In this document: positions 1 to 12,300 of the stretch, in pieces
Numbering within the stretch: the stretch's first letter is position 1
How the letters are laid out: every line of letters starts with the position of its first letter
Origin: an archaeon
GTDB taxonomy: Archaea > Nanobdellota > Nanobdellia > Woesearchaeales > GW2011-AR9
Direction of reading: 5' to 3'
NCBI GenBank assembly: GCA_023266155.1
Contig: JAHFRS010000004.1
Coordinates: 10,430-23,127 of the forward strand
Length of the DNA: 12,698 bases
Translations under genes and position numbers: made by a program
Notes under the pieces: model-generated
What the model was told of the DNA's origin: nothing
Databases searched by the model: none
What the model saw: the letters and a program-made list of their open reading frames with translations, nothing else

Positions 1-71
1 CACAGCAGTGATGTTGTGAGATCAGCAGAAATGTCTGGTCCGATTCTTGAAAAAGAATTCGTAACAATATG
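1..71 (+). other. 3' end of a probable group I intron in the 23S rRNA gene (site L1931)
   Basis: The 23S sequence downstream begins cleanly at A72 with AGCGTAAT, equivalent to E. coli A1932 onward. The universally conserved H69 loop and CUAAGGU that should precede it are absent. Instead there is a hairpin 1-6/13-18 (P8-like), a stretch ending in GTCTGGTCC that resembles the P7 3' strand region, and a hairpin 43-48/53-58 with a GAAA tetraloop (P9-like). The last base before the exon is G71, as expected for the terminal omega-G of a group I intron. L1931 is a known group I insertion site in 23S genes, for example in Thermotoga, and group I introns are known in archaeal rRNA. The 5' exon, catalytic core and any homing endonuclease lie outside the window, so the class is inferred. 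Confidence 0.6.
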
Positions 72-390
72 AGCGTAATACCTTGTCGTTTGATTGACGA
101 CTTGCATGAATGGTATAACGAGATCGCCACTGTCCCGAGCTAGAGTCTCCTGAACACTTCTTCCTGGTGTAAAGACCAGGGATTTCCAGTGGGAAGCGAA
201 GACCCCGTGAAACTTTACTGTAGTCTGCCGCTGTGGTGCGGTTTTTGTTGTATAGCGTAAGTGGGAGCTGTTTGAGGCCATGAGCGTAAGCCTATGGCGT
301 AGGCACCAATGTAACACCACTCCACGAGTACTGCATTACTTACCTCGTAAGAGGGACAACGGTTGGTAGACAGTTTGGCTGGGGCGGCAC

Positions 391-458
391 GCTGTCGAAA
401 AGATAGAGAAATGCGATCATTTCTAATAAAGTTCGCATGCTCACTTTATATCGATAGC
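391..458 (+). other. Expanded H81 hairpin in 23S rRNA
   Basis: The stem 391-398/451-458 closes a region that is a short loop in E. coli and typical archaea. Here the loop carries about 40 extra bases, with an inner perfect stem ATGCGA (411-416) / TCGCAT (433-438), extended by GAG (406-408) / CTC (440-442). This is a lineage-specific expansion segment that directly follows the P-loop. Confidence 0.7.
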
Positions 459-695
459 GCCCAATGGTTGGCTCATCCGGTTTAGAAACATTTACCGCCG
501 GGAAATTTCCTAACGGTAAAGCTGAGGATCCGGAGTGGAGTGCAAGGGCATAAGCCAGCCTGATTGGCTTCCGAACATAAAAGAATCCAAACGCGAAAGC
601 GTGGCCTAGCGAACCTCTCTGCCTTCTTGATGAGGGCGAGAGATGACTGAAAAGTTACTCCGGGGATAATTGAGTTGTCGCGCCCGAGAGTTCAT

Positions 696-734
696 TCTTC
701 TGTCCGTGACGAACGTCATGAACAAAGTGAATAG
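696..734 (+). other. Expansion segment at the tip of 23S helix 89
   Basis: About 39 extra bases separate GAGTTCAT (688-695) from ATCGACGG (735-742), which are contiguous in E. coli. The insert folds as its own hairpin: CGTGAC (705-710) / GTCATG (715-720) with loop GAAC, and outer pairs ATTC (694-697) with GAAT (729-732). It lengthens H89, which lies beside the peptidyl transferase centre. Confidence 0.75.
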
Positions 735-1224
735 ATCGACGGCGCGGTTTGCTTCTTCGATGTCGGCTCATCCTATCCTGGCCGTGCAGAATATAATCGT
801 CTTTAAGACGGAATCTGTGGGCGGCCAAGGGTGGGGGTGTTCACCCATTAAAAGGGTTCGTGAGCTGGGTTCAGAACGCTGTGAGGCAGTTTGTTTGATA
901 TCTACTGGAAATGTTGGGTGTCTGAAAGGAAGGACCTTTTAGTACGAGAGGAACGGAGGTTCGTTGCCACTGGTGGACCGGTTGTCTGACAAGGCATGCC
1001 GGGCAGCTACGCAATAAGCGATAAGTGCTGAACGCATCTAAGCACGAAGCGCCCCTTAAAAATAGACACCTTCGGACACGGCCATAACAGCCGTTTGATA
1101 GAAGCGGTGTGTACGTACCAAGCTTCGGCGAGGTATTCAGCATGCGCTTACTAACGTCCATATCTTTGTTTTAATCTACCTACGGTTTTCATTATACCTT
1201 ATGACGTTCAACGTTGTAGGGTGT

Positions 1225-1438: not shown

Positions 1439-1861
1439 ATGGCTCGTGATTACCGACAAATCGGGATATATCATTTAGCTTACGATTTTGTTTTGGAAAT
1501 TTATCGGCTGACTAAAGATTTTCCTAAAGCCGAAGAACAAAACATCACTTCTCAAATTCGTCGGGCCGCCGTTTCCATTCCTCTGAACATTGCTGAAGGA
1601 AGTGCTAAAGCCAGTGATCGAGAATTTGCCTACTACTTGAATGTCGCTTATGCTTCCGCAAAAGAAGTAGAAGTATTATTGAACTTGTGCTGTGATCTTA
1701 AATATCTGGATGAACTGCAAGGGAAGCAATTAGTTCTCAAGCTTGATGAAGTGAATGCGAAACTGTTCTTGTTTCTGCGAAATATCGAAGCTCGAATAGG
1801 AAGTTCTCGCTATCACTTCTTTAAAAAGTTTGAAGAGAAAACTGCCGATTCAGAAAAATGA
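1439..1861 (+). CDS. Four-helix-bundle protein of the 23S rRNA intervening-sequence (S23) family
   Basis: A 140-residue, mostly helical protein. The family signature is clear: an N-terminal helix, then RRAAVSIPLNIAEGSAKAS (about residues 41-59) and the Ser/Ala-rich third helix with SAKEVEVLL (about 73-81). Length is slightly above the usual 115-125 residues because of a charged C-terminal tail. Family members were first found inside intervening sequences of bacterial 23S rRNA genes. They are related to the Avd accessory protein of diversity-generating retroelements, and a basic surface suggests nucleic-acid binding, but no biochemical role is settled. Here the gene is not inside the rRNA: it follows the 23S terminator with its own TATA-like box. 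No reverse transcriptase is nearby, so an Avd role is not supported. The start is ATG 1439, with no Shine-Dalgarno sequence. Confidence 0.9.
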   Translation: MARDYRQIGIYHLAYDFVLEIYRLTKDFPKAEEQNITSQIRRAAVSIPLNIAEGSAKASDREFAYYLNVAYASAKEVEVLLNLCCDLKYLDELQGKQLVLKLDEVNAKLFLFLRNIEARIGSSRYHFFKKFEEKTADSEK

Positions 1862-4191: not shown

Positions 4192-5658
4192 TCAGAACCC
4201 GTCCCCACTGGAGAATCCTCCGCCGCCGAATCCACCGCCACTGTCAAAACCTCCTCCGCCAAAACCACTGCCAGAATCGCTACTAGACGAGCTACTCCCA
4301 GAACTGTGGTGGTGAGATGAATCGTCGTCACGTGAAGAATAACTCTGGGAGGAATACGAGCTATAAGTTTCTCGTGGTTTAAATTTCTGGTGGGAATCAA
4401 TCTGCCCAGTGACCGCTTCTAAGGAATACTGGCCACCTAAATACCCCAGCAGGAAAGTATCAACATTAAACCCACTATCAAAGTAACTGCGATTGGATTC
4501 GTAATCCTTGCTCGTGTAGAAACGGGAAATACGCTGTAATCCATCAAGTTTGGTGGTTAAAGCACTTTGTTGCTGCTGTATTCCTTTGGCTTTTGCTTTT
4601 ATTTCTTTAATCTCCACATCAACCTGCTCAATTTTGTCCACCAGCCCATCATCTTCTGTACTGGGAGTCGTTTTAGCGCGTTGTTTTAATTGACTCACCG
4701 TATTCCCTTTCAGGTAACCTTTTAATTTTCCCAAAGCTGTTTGATAATATTCTCCTTTGGCATTATCTGCCTCGGTTCGCTCCTGAGCATACCCGCAAAA
4801 TTCCTGATCTTCTTTTTCCAGGGAAGTGAGAATTTTTTTCCGTTGTTCAATCAAGTGCTTCCCTTGACTCAGGACCGGGGGAAGTCCCCGCTGTTCCGCC
4901 GCTTTCGTTTCCATCATTCTCATATTCTCCACGACTAAATCCAGTTCGTTCTGCTGCCGGTCAATCTCGGCTTTGATGGCTTCCGGCATCAATTTCAGAA
5001 AATCATAATTTGCTTTTGTTTCTTTATAATTAACCTTCCCCGCGACCCATGTGTCCAGCTTGGTGGTGATGGCCAGGTCTCCATAGTTCCCGACTCCAAA
5101 ATTCCGCCGCAGCAAATAGTCAAATAATGGTTCTTGGGTATAGGCGGCTAATTTTTGTGTAGCTTGAATTGTAAAAGTTTCGTGCCGTTTTTTATTTTGT
5201 TCCAGACGAGTTTGCGCCTGCCCGGCGTGTCCATGAAGATTTTGATAGAGAGGATTTGCGGCTAGTTCTTCCGCCAACGCCTTTTTCAATTGCTCTCGCT
5301 GCGTGACCGTTTCTTCCAACTGCCGATCAGCCGTAGCGAGTTTTTCTTCCAGACCTGCTTTTTTTTCCCGGGATTGAGACAGTAATTTATCGAGCTGTGC
5401 GCGTCGCTGCTGCCGCTCATTGAAAATGTTTTTTACGTCGTCCTGTAATTCTTTAAGGGTGTTTTTTACCGCCGCCGCATCAAGTTCAGGAAGATAGAAC
5501 ATGGCTAATCGGGCAAAATATTGTTCACGCTGGTCGGTGAGAGTACTTATTCCCTGTTCATAGGCAGACAACTCCCTGCTTAAGCCTTCCTGCTCATTCT
5601 CAGCAGCGCGAATTCTTGTCCGGATGCTTTCATATACTTTTTTTCCACTTATGGTCAT
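4192..5658 (-). CDS. Coiled-coil protein with Ser/Gly-rich C-terminal tail (partner of DUF6384-like protein)
   Basis: A 488-residue soluble protein with no signal peptide or membrane helix. Residues 1-150 and about 215-390 are charged, heptad-like coiled coil. A less charged central part (about 165-215) contains FDYLLRRNFGVGNYGD. Near 395-430 is a conserved-looking globular patch (RFYTSKDYESNRSYF). The tail (about 435-488) is low-complexity Ser/Asp/His followed by GFGGGGFDSGGG repeats. From memory, bacterial gene clusters hold long helical proteins of this design with Gly-rich tails next to DUF6384 proteins; I do not know a biochemical function. It is the second gene of a minus-strand operon, starting 9 bases after the DUF6384-like stop codon. 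It converges with the MetE operon. A structural or scaffold role is a guess. Confidence 0.75.
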   Translation of the reverse strand: MTISGKKVYESIRTRIRAAENEQEGLSRELSAYEQGISTLTDQREQYFARLAMFYLPELDAAAVKNTLKELQDDVKNIFNERQQRRAQLDKLLSQSREKKAGLEEKLATADRQLEETVTQREQLKKALAEELAANPLYQNLHGHAGQAQTRLEQNKKRHETFTIQATQKLAAYTQEPLFDYLLRRNFGVGNYGDLAITTKLDTWVAGKVNYKETKANYDFLKLMPEAIKAEIDRQQNELDLVVENMRMMETKAAEQRGLPPVLSQGKHLIEQRKKILTSLEKEDQEFCGYAQERTEADNAKGEYYQTALGKLKGYLKGNTVSQLKQRAKTTPSTEDDGLVDKIEQVDVEIKEIKAKAKGIQQQQSALTTKLDGLQRISRFYTSKDYESNRSYFDSGFNVDTFLLGYLGGQYSLEAVTGQIDSHQKFKPRETYSSYSSQSYSSRDDDSSHHHSSGSSSSSSDSGSGFGGGGFDSGGGFGGGGFSSGDGF

Positions 5659-5667
5659 GTTCTTAAC

Positions 5668-7164
5668 CTACCAGCGGGTTATCCGGCCACGTTGGAGAGA
5701 AAATTTCTCTTCATATTGCGGCGCCAGATAGCCACGTTTTTTCCTTCCAAGGACCTTATCCTGAAGAATGCCGTCATCTTTCTTGTCTGATTTAACTCGT
5801 TCATACACGTCCTGCGGCACTCGCACTCCCCACAGTTCGACTCGTTCTGTTTGCTGATTCTCCTCATTGACGATATTCTGAGCGACAACGTTCCCGTCAG
5901 GATCGACCGCTTCAACGATCAGATAATAACCTGATACTCTCCTGCCCTGTTCATCTTTATAATACCGATCCTGCCCGCTTTTAACTCCCGGTCTGGAGAC
6001 GATCATCACCTCATATTGTTCGCTGAGCAGGGCCTCAAGCTGGCGTAACTTTTGCACTGTTTCCCGTAACTTGGGAACCTGTGTGTTTTTTTGGTATATT
6101 GACGCTTCACCATAGAGAGCCGTAGCCTGAAGTTGAGCGGCATCTTCCTTCGCTGTTCCTTTAATTGTTGCGTAGACCTGCTCTACTTCTTTCGCTAAAC
6201 TGTCAAATTGCTGAATATCCTGTTGCAATGCCAATAATTGTTGCAGCGAATTCTTGGCAGGAGGTAGTTGGCGTGCCCGGACCTGGCTTGTTCCCGTCTT
6301 ATAGATAGTATCGGCTCGTTCGGCAAAGATTGCCAGCAGTTTTTGATTTTGCACAGAGGCCCAGGTTGCTTCTAACTCCTGCCCCGTTTTCTGTAGATCT
6401 CTTTGATACGTAATCGCCTGTGTTCCTCGTTGTGATTCTTCGGCAATGTTCCCTAAAGATTCAATAATCGTCGTAAGTTGTCTCTGTGCGGCAGGATAAT
6501 TTTTCACCGTGATATCATCATCTGCTGTTCCGTCATCACAAAAAGTTGTAAAGAAAAGGTCAGTTTTGTGTAATTCTCGCGTGGTTCGTTGGAGAAGAGC
6601 CGATAATTCTGCTTGTTCAGTGGCAGGTAACTGTTTCCTCAGAGGGGAGGAAGACCATTCCTGAATAGTTCTTTCCTCAGCCTGTCGCTGCCGATAGTTT
6701 TTTTCTACCAGTTCTTCCACTGCCGCTTCTTGTGTTTTGTGGTAGGCAATTTTTCCCGCCTGCAGGACACCCCACCCCATCCCCCCGAGAACGGAAAGAA
6801 CCAGAGCTGGCATTCCATATTTCCTTCCCAATCTACTGCGGTCAACATAGGCTTTGGCGAGGGAGTAAGAAAAATCTTTTTGAGGAGGCGCAAATTCGTA
6901 TTCCTGGGCGAGATGGTCTTGAATGGCTTTTTCTAAAGTTACATCATCTACTTCCGTGCCCATGCTTTTATACGTCGCGCGTAATTTATCTTTGATCGCT
7001 GCTATTCTTTCTGAGAAGGAAAGTTGTTGTTGTACTTCCTGAGCGACGGTCCTCTCGGCATCCACCACATCCATAATCCGTAAATAATCCTGCACCTTGA
7101 GATCAGCAGTTAATTTTTGTGATAGTACGCCAGGATTATCTAAATCAGCATCAGCAGAGGCCAT
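5668..7164 (-). CDS. DUF6384-like single-pass membrane protein
   Basis: A 498-residue protein. Layout: an N-terminal conserved segment (DYLRIMDVVDAERT, about 26-39, then a helical region to about 90), a basic stretch followed by one transmembrane helix (about 117-135, GMPALVLSVLGGMGWGVL), a long coiled-coil middle (about 150-385), and a C-terminal domain (about 390-498) with SRPG, YYLIVEAVDPDG, WGVRVP, DDGI and a final GRITRW. The N- and C-terminal motifs are those I associate with DUF6384 of Proteobacteria. No catalytic residues are evident. The frame opens at a TTG (7182), but I chose ATG 7164 because a minus-strand TATA box (7197-7190) sits 29-30 bases upstream, which puts the TTG before the transcription start. 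The coiled-coil gene follows in the same operon. It probably anchors a protein assembly at the membrane. Confidence 0.8.
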   Translation of the reverse strand: MASADADLDNPGVLSQKLTADLKVQDYLRIMDVVDAERTVAQEVQQQLSFSERIAAIKDKLRATYKSMGTEVDDVTLEKAIQDHLAQEYEFAPPQKDFSYSLAKAYVDRSRLGRKYGMPALVLSVLGGMGWGVLQAGKIAYHKTQEAAVEELVEKNYRQRQAEERTIQEWSSSPLRKQLPATEQAELSALLQRTTRELHKTDLFFTTFCDDGTADDDITVKNYPAAQRQLTTIIESLGNIAEESQRGTQAITYQRDLQKTGQELEATWASVQNQKLLAIFAERADTIYKTGTSQVRARQLPPAKNSLQQLLALQQDIQQFDSLAKEVEQVYATIKGTAKEDAAQLQATALYGEASIYQKNTQVPKLRETVQKLRQLEALLSEQYEVMIVSRPGVKSGQDRYYKDEQGRRVSGYYLIVEAVDPDGNVVAQNIVNEENQQTERVELWGVRVPQDVYERVKSDKKDDGILQDKVLGRKKRGYLAPQYEEKFSLQRGRITRW

Positions 7165-7189
7165 TACCTGCTCTTTCCACAACGGGTCC

Positions 7190-7197
7190 TATATAAA
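7190..7197 (-). promoter_or_regulatory. TATA box of the DUF6384-like operon
   Basis: On the minus strand TTTATATA is centred 29-30 bases before ATG 7164, giving a message with almost no leader. A second AT-rich palindrome (CTTTTTAAAG, 7216-7225) lies further upstream. Confidence 0.55.
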
Positions 7198-7251
7198 CCT
7201 TTCTTTCTATTACTACTTTAAAAAGATAAACCATCATAAAGTTTATAAACC
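7193..7251 (+). repeat. Three ATAAACC repeats in the divergent promoter region
   Basis: ATAAACC occurs at 7193-7199, 7226-7232 and 7245-7251. The last two share an eighth base (A). They cover the control region shared by the two arms of the module and could be protein-binding sites, or partly TATA sequence by chance. Confidence 0.4.
7241..7250 (+). promoter_or_regulatory. Palindromic TATA box of the rightward module gene
   Basis: GTTTATAAAC is a perfect palindrome 81-90 bases before ATG 7331 and the only good TATA sequence for that gene. Transcription would start near 7272 and leave a leader of about 58 bases. GGGGG (7319-7323), 8 bases before the ATG, may act as a Shine-Dalgarno sequence. 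Confidence 0.4.
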
Positions 7252-7298
7252 AACTTGTTTTTCACCGCCTTACTTTCTCTGACGAGGAAGCACTCGGG

Positions 7299-7334
7299 AT
7301 GAGCCGAACACATGAAGCGGGGGATACACTATGA
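7299..7334 (+). other. Possible 11-codon upstream ORF
   Basis: ATG 7299 opens a frame encoding MSRTHEAGDTL, whose TGA overlaps the ATG at 7331 (ATGA arrangement). It lies in the predicted leader and could couple translation. No Shine-Dalgarno sequence is obvious and it may be chance. Confidence 0.2.
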
Positions 7335-8509
7335 GTAATTTACAACAATATATGGATCGGGCGCTAGGAGTTCTACACAAATATAATATCCTGCATCAGG
7401 AAGGAGAAGAATCTCAAATGGCGGCGTTATTGCAGCGAGTTGTTACGGTTGATGAACCTAAAGTGTTAGCCATTGCCAAAACAATTCAATATATGGGGAC
7501 TTTTAACCAGCTGGTTCGGGAGAATGTGCAGGAAGTGCGTAATGCTGACCGTTATAATGATATCACAAAGATGTTTGATTCTATTCGCGAAGATTCCAAA
7601 GCCTTAGTGCAGCAATTGGAAGATGGTAAAATCGATGTGAAAGAGAGATTTCAGAATTGGGTGATGAAGCTTACTCGAGGCACACCACACAAACGCTTTG
7701 AGAAAATTAGTGAATTGTACGTGGGCGTGAGTACCGATACCAGAGAAGCTTTAGAACGAGAGGACGAAATTTTACAGGCCTATACCAATTTCCGTTTTGC
7801 CGTCAAAGAAGCAGAAATTTTGGCGCATCAGGTATTAGAAGAGCAAGTTAAGGTGAGGGACGCCACGCAGGCAGAGTTTGGCACCAAAGTAAAGGCAGTC
7901 GCAGATTTCCAGGGAGAACAGTCAGAAAAAGGAAAACTGGAACTTGCCCGTGATGAAACTCAACAGACGTGGGAGCAAGAAAAAGGGAAGTATGACCTTA
8001 TCAAGCGCGTCGCCGATAACCTTACGGTCGGATATCATGTTGGTGAAACTTTAATCACCAAGTTGAAACAAACTCACGACATCAAAGAGCAGGTATACCA
8101 GCAAGCGGTCACTTTCTTTAGTACCAACGAGCACGTCTTTACGGTTATGGATGCTGTCTATACATCGCAGCATGGATTGCATGAAGCCACGCAAACATTG
8201 GAAGCCATGAAAACCGGTGCAAACAAAGGGTTGGAAGATATTGCTGCCCTGGGAACGAGGCTGGAAACAGCCGCAATTCAAGCCGGTTACGGTGAGACCA
8301 TTAGCGCGGCGTCTGTCCAGAAATTAGTGGATGCCATTGTGACCTATCAAATCGAATCTGTTAGGATGATTGCGGAAGCACAAGAACAAGCAACAGTAAA
8401 CGCAAAAGAAGTTACCCGCGTCGTTGAAGATGGCAAGCGACGCTATCGTGAAGCTCTGGAAGCGTTTGTGAAACCGGCGGAGAAAGTACTCACTCCAACC
8501 TCTGGGTAA
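7331..8509 (+). CDS. Helical cytoplasmic protein of the DUF6384-associated module
   Basis: A 392-residue protein, helical and acidic, with no signal peptide or membrane segment. Recognisable blocks are KVLAIAKTIQYMGTFNQLVRENV (about 45-67), FDSIREDSKALVQQLEDGKID (about 81-101), KLTRGTPHKRFEKI (about 113-126), DNLTVGYHVGETLITKLKQT (about 229-248), VYQQAVTFFSTNEHVFT (about 255-271) and EATQTLEAMKTG (about 284-295). From memory these match a conserved proteobacterial family often labelled 'cell surface protein', encoded beside DUF6384 and sometimes the TelA toxic-anion-resistance protein. The sequence argues against a surface location. It shares a 166-base divergent promoter region with the DUF6384-like gene, so the three are likely co-regulated. 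General architecture recalls TelA, but I do not see TelA's own motifs. Function unknown. Confidence 0.72.
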   Translation: MSNLQQYMDRALGVLHKYNILHQEGEESQMAALLQRVVTVDEPKVLAIAKTIQYMGTFNQLVRENVQEVRNADRYNDITKMFDSIREDSKALVQQLEDGKIDVKERFQNWVMKLTRGTPHKRFEKISELYVGVSTDTREALEREDEILQAYTNFRFAVKEAEILAHQVLEEQVKVRDATQAEFGTKVKAVADFQGEQSEKGKLELARDETQQTWEQEKGKYDLIKRVADNLTVGYHVGETLITKLKQTHDIKEQVYQQAVTFFSTNEHVFTVMDAVYTSQHGLHEATQTLEAMKTGANKGLEDIAALGTRLETAAIQAGYGETISAASVQKLVDAIVTYQIESVRMIAEAQEQATVNAKEVTRVVEDGKRRYREALEAFVKPAEKVLTPTSG

Positions 8510-8542
8510 GTTTTTATTTTTTATTTCTTCTTTTCCTTTTTC
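8510..8542 (+). terminator. T-rich terminator of the rightward module gene
   Basis: Directly after the stop codon the plus strand runs through repeated T4-T6 blocks. Most of it doubles as the lysine-rich 3' end of topA, whose stop codon is only 11 bases away on the other strand. Confidence 0.5.
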
Positions 8543-10842
8543 AAGATATTGGTTGTCGTGTTCTCTTTCTTCCCAGCCTTCTTCTCTTCACTACTCTTCT
8601 CTCCCTTCTCTTCACTACCTTTCTCCCCTTTCTTCCCATTACTTGCGCTCGTCTCCAATTTCATAATCTGCCGGCATTGAGGGTAGCCTGAACAACCTAA
8701 AAAAGAGCCATAGACTGAACGCCGCACCACTAAATCCTTCCCGCATTTTGGACATTTTTTTTCGATTTTCTGCGTGGCAAACTGTTGAATTTCCTTCCGT
8801 TCTTCAACGGTTGTTTTACTTTTACACGATGGATTGATACAGACCTGCTGTTTGCCCCGCTTCTGAATGATGTCAATTAAAGGATAGGAACAAGTTTCAC
8901 AGCTCTTCCCCGTGCTTTTGATCATCCCCCCTCTGGGCAGTTTAAATGTCGTGGTGCATTGTGGATATTGGTTACAGGCGATAAACCGGCCAAATTTGCC
9001 CAGGCGCATCATCAGTTTTCCTTGGCCACAGGTTGGACACCCGCCGATATAATTCTGAACATCTCTGGTTTCCTGAACAGATTTCATAATATCAGCGCCG
9101 ATTTGCTGTTCTTTTTTCTTGAAATCAGCCAGTAACGGCACTAAGATTTTCTGTGCTTCCTGCAATACTTTTTCTTCTTTTTCAGTTCCTTCACGAATTT
9201 TTTCCAGATCCTCTTCAAAGTTGACAGTCAGTTCCTCATCTAAAATCGTGGGGGCATATTTTTCCAGGATAGTGATCGTCTCCATCCCTAATTTGCTGAC
9301 GGTGATCTGCACCCCTTCCAAGTATCCACGCTGGAATAAGCGATCGAGAATGTCGGCTCTGGTCGCCTTCGTCCCCAGATTGCGTTTTTCCAGTTCCTTG
9401 ATGATCGAAGATTGATTGTAACGATGCGGCGGCTGCGTTTCTTTATCGATTTTCTTGATTTCAGTGATGAGAACTTTTTCTCCTTCTTTCATGTTGGGAA
9501 GGGTGATTTCTTCCACTTTCACGTATGGTTTGTAGAACAGATACCAATTCTCAGCCAGAGTTCGGGTGCCTTTGGTGATAAACAGTTCCCGGTTCACGTC
9601 AAGAACGACTTCCATCGTTTCTCGTAAAGCCGCCTTCGCAAACGTGGCCAGAAATCGTTTGACAATCAAGTCATACAATTTCTGTTCTCTCTGGTTCAAT
9701 CCGGTGGGGATCACTCCCGTCGGGAAAATTGCCGGATGGGCGGGATCTGTTTTTCTGCCATTATGAGGCTTTAATTCTTTTTCTTTCAGCAGCTGTCCGG
9801 CCAGCTGTTTATAATCAACCTGTTTCTCCAGTTCCGTCAAAATTTTTCTAAATCCTAATTTAGGATCTAATTGTTGTGATGAGGTTCGCGGATAAGACGT
9901 CGCTCCCGCCAGATAGAGGCTTTGAGCCACCTCTAACGTTTCTTTTGGCGTAATCTTAAACAGGTTGTATGATTCTGTCTGTAACGTGGTCAGGTCAAAC
10001 GGATAGGGGGGAGCTTGTTCCCGTTGCGTACGTGTTACTTTACTGATGGTAGCTTCTTTGTGTCCTTTCACCGCGGCCAGAATGACATCCACTTCTTTTG
10101 TATCAAATATTTTATCTTTGAGATGCCACGCTTCCACTGCTGCTTGTTGATACTTCCCCCATAAGCCAATCTGCCAGTATGGTTCTGGCTTGAACGCCGC
10201 AATCTCTTTTTCCCGATCTACTAATAATTTTAAAGCTGGCCCTTGTACCCGGCCAACAGACATGACCCTAAATGAGCCCGCTGCTTTCACCGCTGACGTT
10301 AACGCTCGTGACAAATTTATTCCATAGAACCAGTCTAATTTATGTCTGGTTTCCCCCGCGTGCGCCTGTCCCCAATCTAAATGATTGGCCTTCTGGGCAT
10401 AGGCTTCCACCAATTCCGGTTTTGTGAGTGTGGAGAATTTCATCCGCTGGGCATCTTTTTGCTTACAGGCATAGCGAATGACATTCAGGCCAATGACTTC
10501 TCCTTCCACGTCATAGTCGCAGGCAATGGTGAATTCTGTCGCTTTTTTCGCTAATTCAGTGATGGTATCGATATAAATCTTGACATGCTGCAGATTTTTT
10601 CGCACACGGTGGGCGGCGACCCAAGTAATGTCAAACACCGGATAGGTCCAGCCTTTCTTTCCCCGTTCCATTAAAGAATAGAGATGGCCGACAGCTGAGG
10701 TGACGATAATCGGTTTTTTGTGATGGGTCAATTCAAAATAGGAACATTGCTGGTTTCTTTTCTGCAACAGTTTGCCGTCGGCAAGCGCCTCAGCTATTTT
10801 TTTGGCGGAGCTGGGTTTCTCGGTGATGATTAATTCGACCAT
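8521..10842 (-). CDS. topA: DNA topoisomerase I (type IA, archaeal)
   Basis: A 773-residue type IA topoisomerase that relaxes negatively supercoiled DNA through a transient 5'-phosphotyrosine link. The TOPRIM part shows E8 in IITEKPS and the metal-binding D109-x-D111-x-E113 in ACDYDVEGE. The catalytic tyrosine is Y317 in [21 protein letters not shown] (191-204) and [13 protein letters not shown] (490-502) are further family blocks. Three C4 zinc fingers follow: C602/605/623/629, C648/651/668/673 and C697/700/717/723. The last 40 residues are a Lys/Glu/Ser tail with an 8-residue repeat. There is no helicase domain, so it is not reverse gyrase. A minus-strand TATA box (TTTTTAAA, 10873-10866) is 27 bases before ATG 10842, which supports a leaderless start. 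It is divergent from the sigma factor gene. Confidence 0.96.
8582..8618 (-). repeat. 24-bp repeat encoding KGEK-SEE units in the TopA tail
   Basis: TTCTCTTCACTAC at 8582-8594 recurs at 8606-8618, a 24-bp period equal to 8 codons. It makes two KGEK(G/S)SEE units. Confidence 0.75.
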
Positions 10843-10873
10843 TTAATGATAAATCTGGCGGGTGGTTTAAAAA
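10842..10873. promoter_or_regulatory. Interleaved divergent promoters of topA and the sigma factor gene
   Basis: The topA TATA box (minus strand, 10873-10866) covers the sigma gene's chosen start codon. A TATA-like TTTAATGAT on the plus strand (10842-10850) abuts the topA start and lies 26-28 bases before ATG 10873. Two initiation complexes could hardly occupy this stretch at once, which suggests mutually exclusive expression. Confidence 0.45.
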
Positions 10874-12300
10874 TGTTTGGGGGGAGCGAGGAAACAATTT
10901 ATAAAATCCGTACCATCCCTGCTGGTACTATGGGGGGCTCTCAACGGTCTATGCGGCAGTACGACGCCATCGATGGAGAACGGCTGGAAGAAAGGGTTGA
11001 TGATTCTCGAAATCAAACACCAGATAGTGAACCTACGGCGGTTCAGTTATATTTTCAGTCTATTGGTGCCATTCCCCTTCTGAGCCCGGAGCAAGAAATT
11101 GAATTAGTCAAGAAGCGAGATGATCTCAAAGAAAGATTATGGAGCAGTGCTTTTGAACTTGCGCCATTGAAAGCCTACTCTCTGCTCTATCAAGTCGCAG
11201 AGCAGATGGAATCTGAACCTAAAATAATGAAAGAGATCCTTCTGGCTTCGAAACAGGTTTCCATCGGTAAATTTAAAGAATATCTTCGTGAAGTGACTCA
11301 TAAATATAAATCGCTGGAACGCAGACTTAAAACTGCGGCTAAATATGATGCTCAAGCTAATGTCCAAGTTAATGCTAAATCTAATGGAGAGTCCCAAAAA
11401 GAAAAAAGACAGCAGCTTCAACGAAAAGGTAGGGATCTTGCCAGCGAATTCATAACTCAGTATGCTCTTACCATCAAGTATCTGGCAGGATTTATCGGGG
11501 CTATTGAACAGGATCCATATACCGAAAAAACTACTCAAGAACAACTGTCGCGGCTGCTCTATCACTATCATCAAAATCAGGATCTCTTTGTAAGATCTAA
11601 CTTGCGGTTGGTCGTTTCCATCGCCAAAAAGTATGCTCGTGGCCCTACTCTTTTTCTTGATCTCTGTCAGGAAGGTAACATGGGGCTGATGAAAGCAGCA
11701 GAAAAATTTGATTATAAGCGCGGCTTCCGCTTTAGCACTTATGCGACGTGGTGGATACGGCAGTCTATCCGCCGTTCCCTAAGCGACAAATCACGAACGA
11801 TTCGCCTTCCCATTCATCTGGTAGAGTCGCTGCTGACGATGGCAAAAACAGAGAAAACGTTGATGCAGGAATTTGGGCGGCCAGCGACGGAAGAAGAAAT
11901 TGCCGCGCGTCTGATGATTTCTAAAAAAAAAATACGGACCCTCAAGACTTATCAGGGTCAAGAGCCTTTTTCGCTGTCGAGCACGATCCCGGGAACAGAC
12001 AATATTCATTTAGAGCAATTGTTAGAAGACCACCGTGCTCAAGAGATAGGAGAAGCACTGGAAAAACGGCAGCTTACGGTTGGGTTACACCGGTTAATGA
12101 ACGAAACATTGACGCCAAAAGAATATGCGATTCTGCGGCTGCGTTTTGGGTTGGATGACGACAATGCTGAGACGTTAAAAAATGTAGGTGAAAAAATGCA
12201 GGTAACACGTGAGAGAATCCGGCAAATAGAAAAGAAAGCTCTGGGAAAGTTGCGGCATCCGGTTCGTTCCACGAGACTGAAAGAATTTGTGGATAAATAA
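10873..12300 (+). CDS. Bacterial-type sigma-70 family RNA polymerase sigma factor
   Basis: A 475-residue protein from the chosen start; numbers here count from the longer frame's ATG 10846, so subtract 9. Region 1.2 is at 64-90 ([19 protein letters not shown]). A Lys-rich non-conserved spacer runs from 92 to 245. Region 2 (247-310) has [32 protein letters not shown] and [11 protein letters not shown], covering core binding and promoter melting. Region 3 starts at RTIRLPIHL (318-326). Region 4.2 (about 441-472) has [20 protein letters not shown], the -35 helix-turn-helix. Region 1.1 is lacking. The architecture is of the primary/group 2 type, not ECF. In region 2.4 the position equal to E. coli T440 is Arg (R309), while Q437 is kept (Q306). 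ATG 10846 would leave 3 bases between divergent starts, so ATG 10873 is preferred. Its partner polymerase in an archaeon is unknown. Confidence 0.95.

Follow-up and report, generated by a model that had tools for sequence, protein, structure and literature searches.

The question raised by this locus is what a complete sigma factor of bacterial type is doing in an archaeal genome, and in particular whether it works with the RNA polymerase of its own cell. The window (the whole stretch of DNA analysed, 12,698 nucleotides, C141:10430-23127) forms the terminal part of a 23,127-base contig in a 1.19 Mb assembly of 186 contigs, which is 82.66% complete with 5.56% contamination. An archaeal 23S rRNA gene is complete on this contig (2455 bits, RF02540), which also carries an 834-aa ORF, named by eye, that resembles family-B DNA polymerases. 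Beside the sigma ORF and divergent from it lies topA, scoring 735 bits against a cut-off of 458 for TIGR01057, with its start codon 3 bp from the first ATG of the sigma ORF. An earlier reading, made from the sequence only, had placed the sigma gene in one window with an archaeal 23S rRNA and an archaeal topA, and both identifications hold. TopA is 63 - 75% identical to its 119 best relatives, among which the named organisms are Woesearchaeota, Nanoarchaeota or Nanoarchaeia, and by this sequence comparison the host lineage is Woesearchaeota. Elsewhere in the window a protein of the 23S rRNA-intervening-sequence four-helix-bundle family (PF05635) is encoded at 1439-1861(+), directly 3' of the 23S gene and not within it, and positions 4192-8509 encode a 488-aa coiled-coil protein with a Gly/Ser-rich tail, a DUF6384 protein and a 392-aa protein, whose matches to defence families are weak only.

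The sequence-only reading had also described the protein as a complete sigma-70 factor of bacterial type, and this is confirmed by Pfam matches above the curated cut-offs for region 1.2 (Sigma70_r1_2, residues 65-89, E 2.3e-8), region 2 (Sigma70_r2, residues 248-318, E 4.5e-22), region 3 (Sigma70_r3, residues 332-398, E 7.7e-11) and region 4 (Sigma70_r4, residues 421-471, E 1.3e-17). In this order of regions the protein is like the bacterial group 1 factors RpoD and SigA, with about 50% identity in the C-terminal half and near-identical motifs 2.2, 2.4 and 4.2; in the PDB it is closest to chains of SigA/RpoD (E as low as 2.4e-70), and the best 25 of 41 NCBIfam matches are to RpoD and other sigma-70 models. 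It differs from RpoD/SigA, however, in showing no match to region 1.1 (PF03979) in Pfam at E 0.001, in not reaching the NCBIfam cut-offs for the RpoD equivalog (330 of 555 bits, the best RpoD model) and for RpoD_Cterm (280 of 354 bits), in having an insert between regions 1.2 and 2 for which the bacterial set holds no match, and in its presumed partner, which is an archaeal RNA polymerase. Archaeal TFB has a role analogous to that of sigma, and a passage in one review argues that the two are homologous (PMC8131849), but the window protein is bacterial-type, and a Pfam search at E 0.001 showed no TFIIB in it. An AlphaFold model likewise has sigma factors as its best Foldseek matches, only the core of the model being informative because its mean pLDDT is 63.9. 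The start of the gene had been put at 10873, which is among the possible ATGs, but two TATA-like stretches (10866-10873 and 10898-10906) make the ATG at 10930 the likelier start. Both would be compatible with leaderless archaeal transcription of topA and, from ATG 10930, of sigma; on a leaderless reading, the sigma gene would itself probably be under the TBP/TFB pathway.

Table 1. Features of the window; positions are counted from its first nucleotide.
Feature	Positions	Strand	Basis
23S rRNA 3' part, archaeal (host marker)	1..1173	+	Rfam RF02540
Archaeal DNA topoisomerase I, topA (host marker)	8521..10842	-	TIGR01057
Sigma-70 family ORF, 484 codons; probable start ATG 10930 (456 aa)	10846..12300	+	
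Possible archaeal promoter: TATA-like TTTAAAAA, lying between the starts of the divergent genes topA and sigma and ~27 nt from the ATG of topA	10866..10873		
Possible sigma promoter, archaeal and leaderless: TATA-like TTTATAAAA, ~28 nt before ATG 10930	10898..10906	+	
Sigma region 1.2	11038..11112	+	Pfam PF00140
Insert, non-conserved, separating region 1.2 from region 2; resembles same-genus sigma insert	11131..11577	+	
Sigma region 2 (core binding, -10 recognition, melting)	11587..11799	+	Pfam PF04542
Region 2.2 motif, clamp-helix-binding residues kept	11653..11691	+	Alignment
Sigma region 3	11839..12039	+	Pfam PF04539
Sigma region 4	12106..12258	+	Pfam PF04545
Region 4.2 helix-turn-helix (-35 recognition)	12202..12261	+	Alignment

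The assembly is fragmented and contaminated to the extent given above, and the sigma ORF stops about 400 bp before the end of the contig, so that the gene might be an assembly chimera or bin contamination. This is exceedingly improbable, given the archaeal 23S and topA genes on the same contig, the occurrence of sigma matches in many genomes of the order (one of the contigs concerned, L110, also has topA) and a host-like codon usage (r 0.876, where 13 reference genes from this genome span 0.784 to 0.955). Castelle et al. (2021) likewise ruled out misbinning for their own genomes, in the passage concerned (PMC8204110). The GC content of the gene, 0.444, falls within the range of the same 13 reference genes. 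A further point against a chimera is the insert after region 1.2, which resembles the insert of a sigma factor from a genome of the same genus (G001; E 1.1e-4, the sole direct match), the two proteins being 30% identical over 417 aligned positions. Of the best database sigmas, the 119 others (few of them named, and presumed to be bacterial) gave no match to the insert, nor did 6053 ORFs from 80 bacterial loci; with region 1.2 and the insert together as query there were weaker matches to L106, L107 and L109, and an HMM of the insert matched nothing beyond its own training rows. The adjacency of topA and sigma does not hold across relatives and was rejected as a general arrangement.

Complete sigma factors are said to have been found by Rinke et al. 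in 2013 in single-cell genomes of a few uncultivated archaea, and the sequence-only reading accordingly took such proteins to be rare. A survey of 191 genomes (the present one and its relatives down to the rank of order), with the window protein as query, does not bear this out: 80 genomes, the present one included, gave sigma matches, and these represent 69 of the 155 genera of the order, so that rarity was rejected. Strong matches (E 1.4e-20 or better) were obtained in 56 of the 80, whilst the 24 genomes with weak matches may include ECF- or HTH-like proteins. In a wider draw of 371 genomes from the phylum the region-3 family was detected in 65, of which 48 were above the cut-off and 18 fall outside the order; the weak matches are not to be trusted here, because a Methanocaldococcus control also matched, presumably below the cut-off. 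The prevalence was already in print, since Castelle et al. (2021) describe sigma-70 as "particularly prevalent in Woesearchaeota" and the family as present in DPANN (PMC8204110). Their DPANN proteins (fam00359) are of the same family and the same lineage as the window sigma; the passage reports that anti-sigma factors were not found and leaves the function open and, unlike the present analysis, it contains no residue-level test, promoter test or link to alpha-CTD proteins (PMC8204110). It was the only paper on complete archaeal sigma-70 proteins that a search of the open-licence PMC literature turned up; the relevant part of another gives sigma region-3/4-like domain labels to archaeal LuxR-type proteins and no more (PMC5413776). 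The window sigma is thus real, archaeal and of a kind already reported from its lineage.

Long matches among the relatives are mostly only 30 - 47% identical. Many genomes hold several copies, with adjoining sigma genes in L110, L113, L114, L117 and L124, and protein lengths are highly variable, reaching 1741 aa in L119. In that longest protein (L119:4316-9541(+)) sigma-70 is confined to the last 300 residues, the first 1450 having no Pfam match at E 0.001. Three sigma genes stand in tandem in each of L114 and L117 (from G047 and G042), where a family of 235-aa genes is common to both and lies upstream of the arrays; its member in L113 has a DUF7343 domain. Unknown proteins similar in size to an HATPase_c_3 protein that adjoins sigma in L118 are found beside sigma in L108, L109 and L111.

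Residue conservation was assessed in an alignment of 60 archaeal cores (77 HMM matches less 5 duplicate loci and 12 that failed length or coverage filters) and 38 bacterial ones, thinned at 85% similarity, the figures below being for the 37 higher-scoring archaeal rows. Among the residues that we take to read the -35 element, R584, E585 and R588 were found in 100% of these rows and Q589 in 97%; of those presumed to act in -10 recognition and melting, N383 was kept in 100%, Y430 and W434 in 97%, Q437 in 91% and W433 in 89%; and four of the six positions taken to bind the clamp were well conserved (D403 94%, E407 89%, N409 89%, Q406 83%). Other positions were relaxed in comparison with bacteria, namely L402 (43%, bacteria 81%), M413 (62%, 76%), T440 (51%, 71%) and H455 (70%, 100%), and values were mostly lower in the set of 60 rows, e.g. 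W433 68% and Q406 73%. The window sigma itself is the same as E. coli at all six clamp-helix-binding positions of region 2.2 and retains the -10 and -35 residues except that T440 is replaced by R and that there are three milder substitutions (Y425F, V454I and M456L). The near-consensus core-binding, melting and -35 motifs noted from the sequence are therefore confirmed by residue alignment. Since most of the -35, -10 and clamp residues are conserved, the archaeal sigmas look functional, and conservation of this kind at an overall identity of mostly 30 - 47% suggests that DNA binding and core binding have both been under selection. Judged by its residues, the window protein is probably functional as a sigma-70 protein.

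The presumed partner is the archaeal polymerase. A domain search of the genome gave one Rpb1-type match, the product of which is closest to archaeal Rpo1N/A' chains, and found no second multisubunit polymerase; over the survey set Rpb1-type matches occurred in 185 of 191 genomes. TFB was found in 170 of the 191, comprising 73 of the 80 sigma-bearing genomes and 97 of the 111 others (Fisher p 0.49), and the proposition that sigma replaces TFB is therefore not supported. Seven sigma-bearing genomes lack a TFB match, two of them (G053 and G083) being at least 92% complete. TFB was not found in the present genome (82.7% complete), probably through incompleteness, and it was found in G001 of the same genus. 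The clamp coiled coil of RpoA' is homologous to the bacterial beta' clamp helices, and it is possible, from the sequences, that sigma binds there. A comparison of 70 RpoA' loci, of which 60 rows were readable, showed the coiled coil to be near-invariant across 34 strong-sigma, 7 weak-sigma and 19 sigma-less genomes. Covariation of the clamp with sigma was thus rejected, and a clamp that is the same with or without sigma gives no sign of adaptation; it may be that the unmodified clamp is sufficient for sigma, or that there is no binding at all.

Searches for promoters served by sigma found none. Exact TTGACA-N16-18-TATAAT pairs numbered 0 in the present genome (backward control 3), and the tallies against backward controls were 70 vs 72 in the 56 strong-sigma genomes, 37 vs 18 in the 24 weak-sigma genomes and 169 vs 107 in the 111 genomes without a sigma match. 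As the excess lies in the weak-sigma and sigma-less genomes and not in the strong-sigma ones, there is no link of such pairs with sigma, and the tally is the opposite of a sigma-driven enrichment. Some sigma-less genomes (e.g. G069, G151 and G057) had more exact pairs than controls, perhaps through codon or word bias. With up to 2 mismatches the present genome showed a weak excess, 189 sites at spacer 17 vs 152 at spacer 22 and 135 and 142 in backward controls, which is about 2 standard deviations above the spacer control and about 3 above the mean of the three controls; with up to 1 mismatch there was no excess (9 at spacer 17 vs 13 at spacer 22), and all 9 sites lie inside ORFs. Nor did the regions that precede 65 archaeal sigma genes show a -35/-10 signal (8.57 vs 8.39 in shuffles), 6 of the 65 having 10 of 12 consensus positions; these regions were counted from the first possible start codon and may be misplaced. 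The absence of a sigma-linked excess makes a genome-wide, RpoD-like role unlikely, and a small regulon or a different motif possibly lies behind the missing signal.

The interpretation we favour, tentatively and at close to an even chance, is that the protein is an accessory initiation factor of the host's own archaeal RNA polymerase, anciently acquired and with a small regulon. Region 2 would dock on the RpoA' clamp coiled coil and would recognise and melt a -10-like element, region 4 would read a -35-like element, and the factor would direct the polymerase to a small group of promoters, probably in certain conditions only, with TBP/TFB continuing as the general pathway. It is possible, if rather unlikely, that the sigma has instead become a DNA-binding regulator which forms no holoenzyme and represses or activates TFB-driven promoters through -35/-10-like sites. 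The -35-reading residues are indeed conserved more than the clamp residues L402 and M413, no promoter-like enrichment is tied to sigma, the tally of exact pairs by sigma status shifts weight slightly from the accessory-factor interpretation, and pieces of sigma have been re-used in this genome in a fusion of region 4 with an alpha-CTD, for which Pfam shows no region 2 at E 0.001. However, D403, Q406, E407, N409 and the melting residues are conserved at 83 - 97% in the 37 rows, and it is not obvious why a protein that only binds DNA should require them.

Service to a mobile element, virus or conflict system, rather than to the cell, is improbable. The patchy occurrence and very variable lengths of the proteins would suit such an element, as would the HATPase-domain neighbour beside one relative's sigma (an HATPase_c_3 protein, L118:11065-13446(-), directly upstream of the sigma gene) and a match to the profile of MzaA, the sigma of the MZA anti-phage system (E 1e-82). 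The window protein is like MzaA in its sigma-70 regions, the match covering residues 45-484, but it scores 279 of 800 bits, far under the cut-off, and there are no convincing defence genes among the five window neighbours scanned for MZA partner genes, for which PADLOC matches were weak or none, the contig ending 400 bp downstream. The gene moreover adjoins topA on a contig with 23S, and no neighbour family recurs in more than 4 loci (19 relative loci and the present genome's C173). It is more improbable still that the polymerase served by the sigma is a bacterial one, e.g. in a bacterial partner to which the protein is exported: its motifs are near-identical to bacterial ones, but no bacterial partner is known from the present data and an identity among relatives of mostly only 30 - 47% fits a single conserved target poorly.

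The sigma is presumably of bacterial origin, and we infer an ancient acquisition, after which the order retained the gene and its copies multiplied. A sigma tree had been proposed as a check; in poorly resolved trees with many long branches (about 246 columns) most archaeal sigmas do fall together, but the window sigma is placed weakly beside bacteria. With 33 archaeal and 19 bacterial rows, forcing all 33 archaeal rows into one clade cost 0.02 log units, and the AU test does not reject a single archaeal clade (p 0.49).

To our knowledge, bacterial promoter-binding alpha-CTD domains are not expected in archaea. The genome that holds the window sigma nevertheless encodes two proteins with such domains, which are new, no paper on an archaeal alpha-CTD having been found in the open-licence PMC literature. 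One (C173; L125:7999-9210(-)) is a 404-aa fusion of sigma region 4 with a bacterial RNA polymerase alpha-CTD, which has at least 20 near-full-length relatives in public data and lies one gene away from a class I tRNA synthetase gene of isoleucyl/valyl type. The other (C116; L181:5636-6370(+)) is a protein of 244 aa in which an alpha-CTD is accompanied by a second alpha-CTD-like repeat that looks degenerate, and its gene is divergent from a run of genes recognised by eye as archaeal ribosomal protein genes. The fusion is a more novel lead than the sigma-70 itself. It would be an attractive, if distinctly unlikely, extension that Woesearchaeota possess a second, bacterial-style layer of promoter recognition, in which sigma sits on the clamp whilst sigma region 4/alpha-CTD adaptors read UP-element or -35-like DNA and help or compete with it. 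If the sigmas do drive the archaeal polymerase, bacterial and archaeal/eukaryotic modes of initiation would operate on one enzyme in one cell, and this would offer a direct test of how far the clamp-binding logic of sigma and of TFB/TFE is interchangeable. That question belongs to the evolution of transcription, and the divergent order-wide copies, the sigma-less sister genomes and the alpha-CTD fusions provide material for it. In passages of recent papers archaea are still said to have no sigma factors (PMC12316311) or to need none (PMC12993045). Two alpha-CTD domains also occur in one protein of a related genome (G039:C138; L180:2334-2861(-)), on a 3-kb contig. The present genome further encodes a 181-aa ECF-like sigma factor with a region 2 match (C157; L084:708-1253(-)), beside a phosphoglycerate kinase-like gene and with a 4-base overlap with a hydrolase-like gene.
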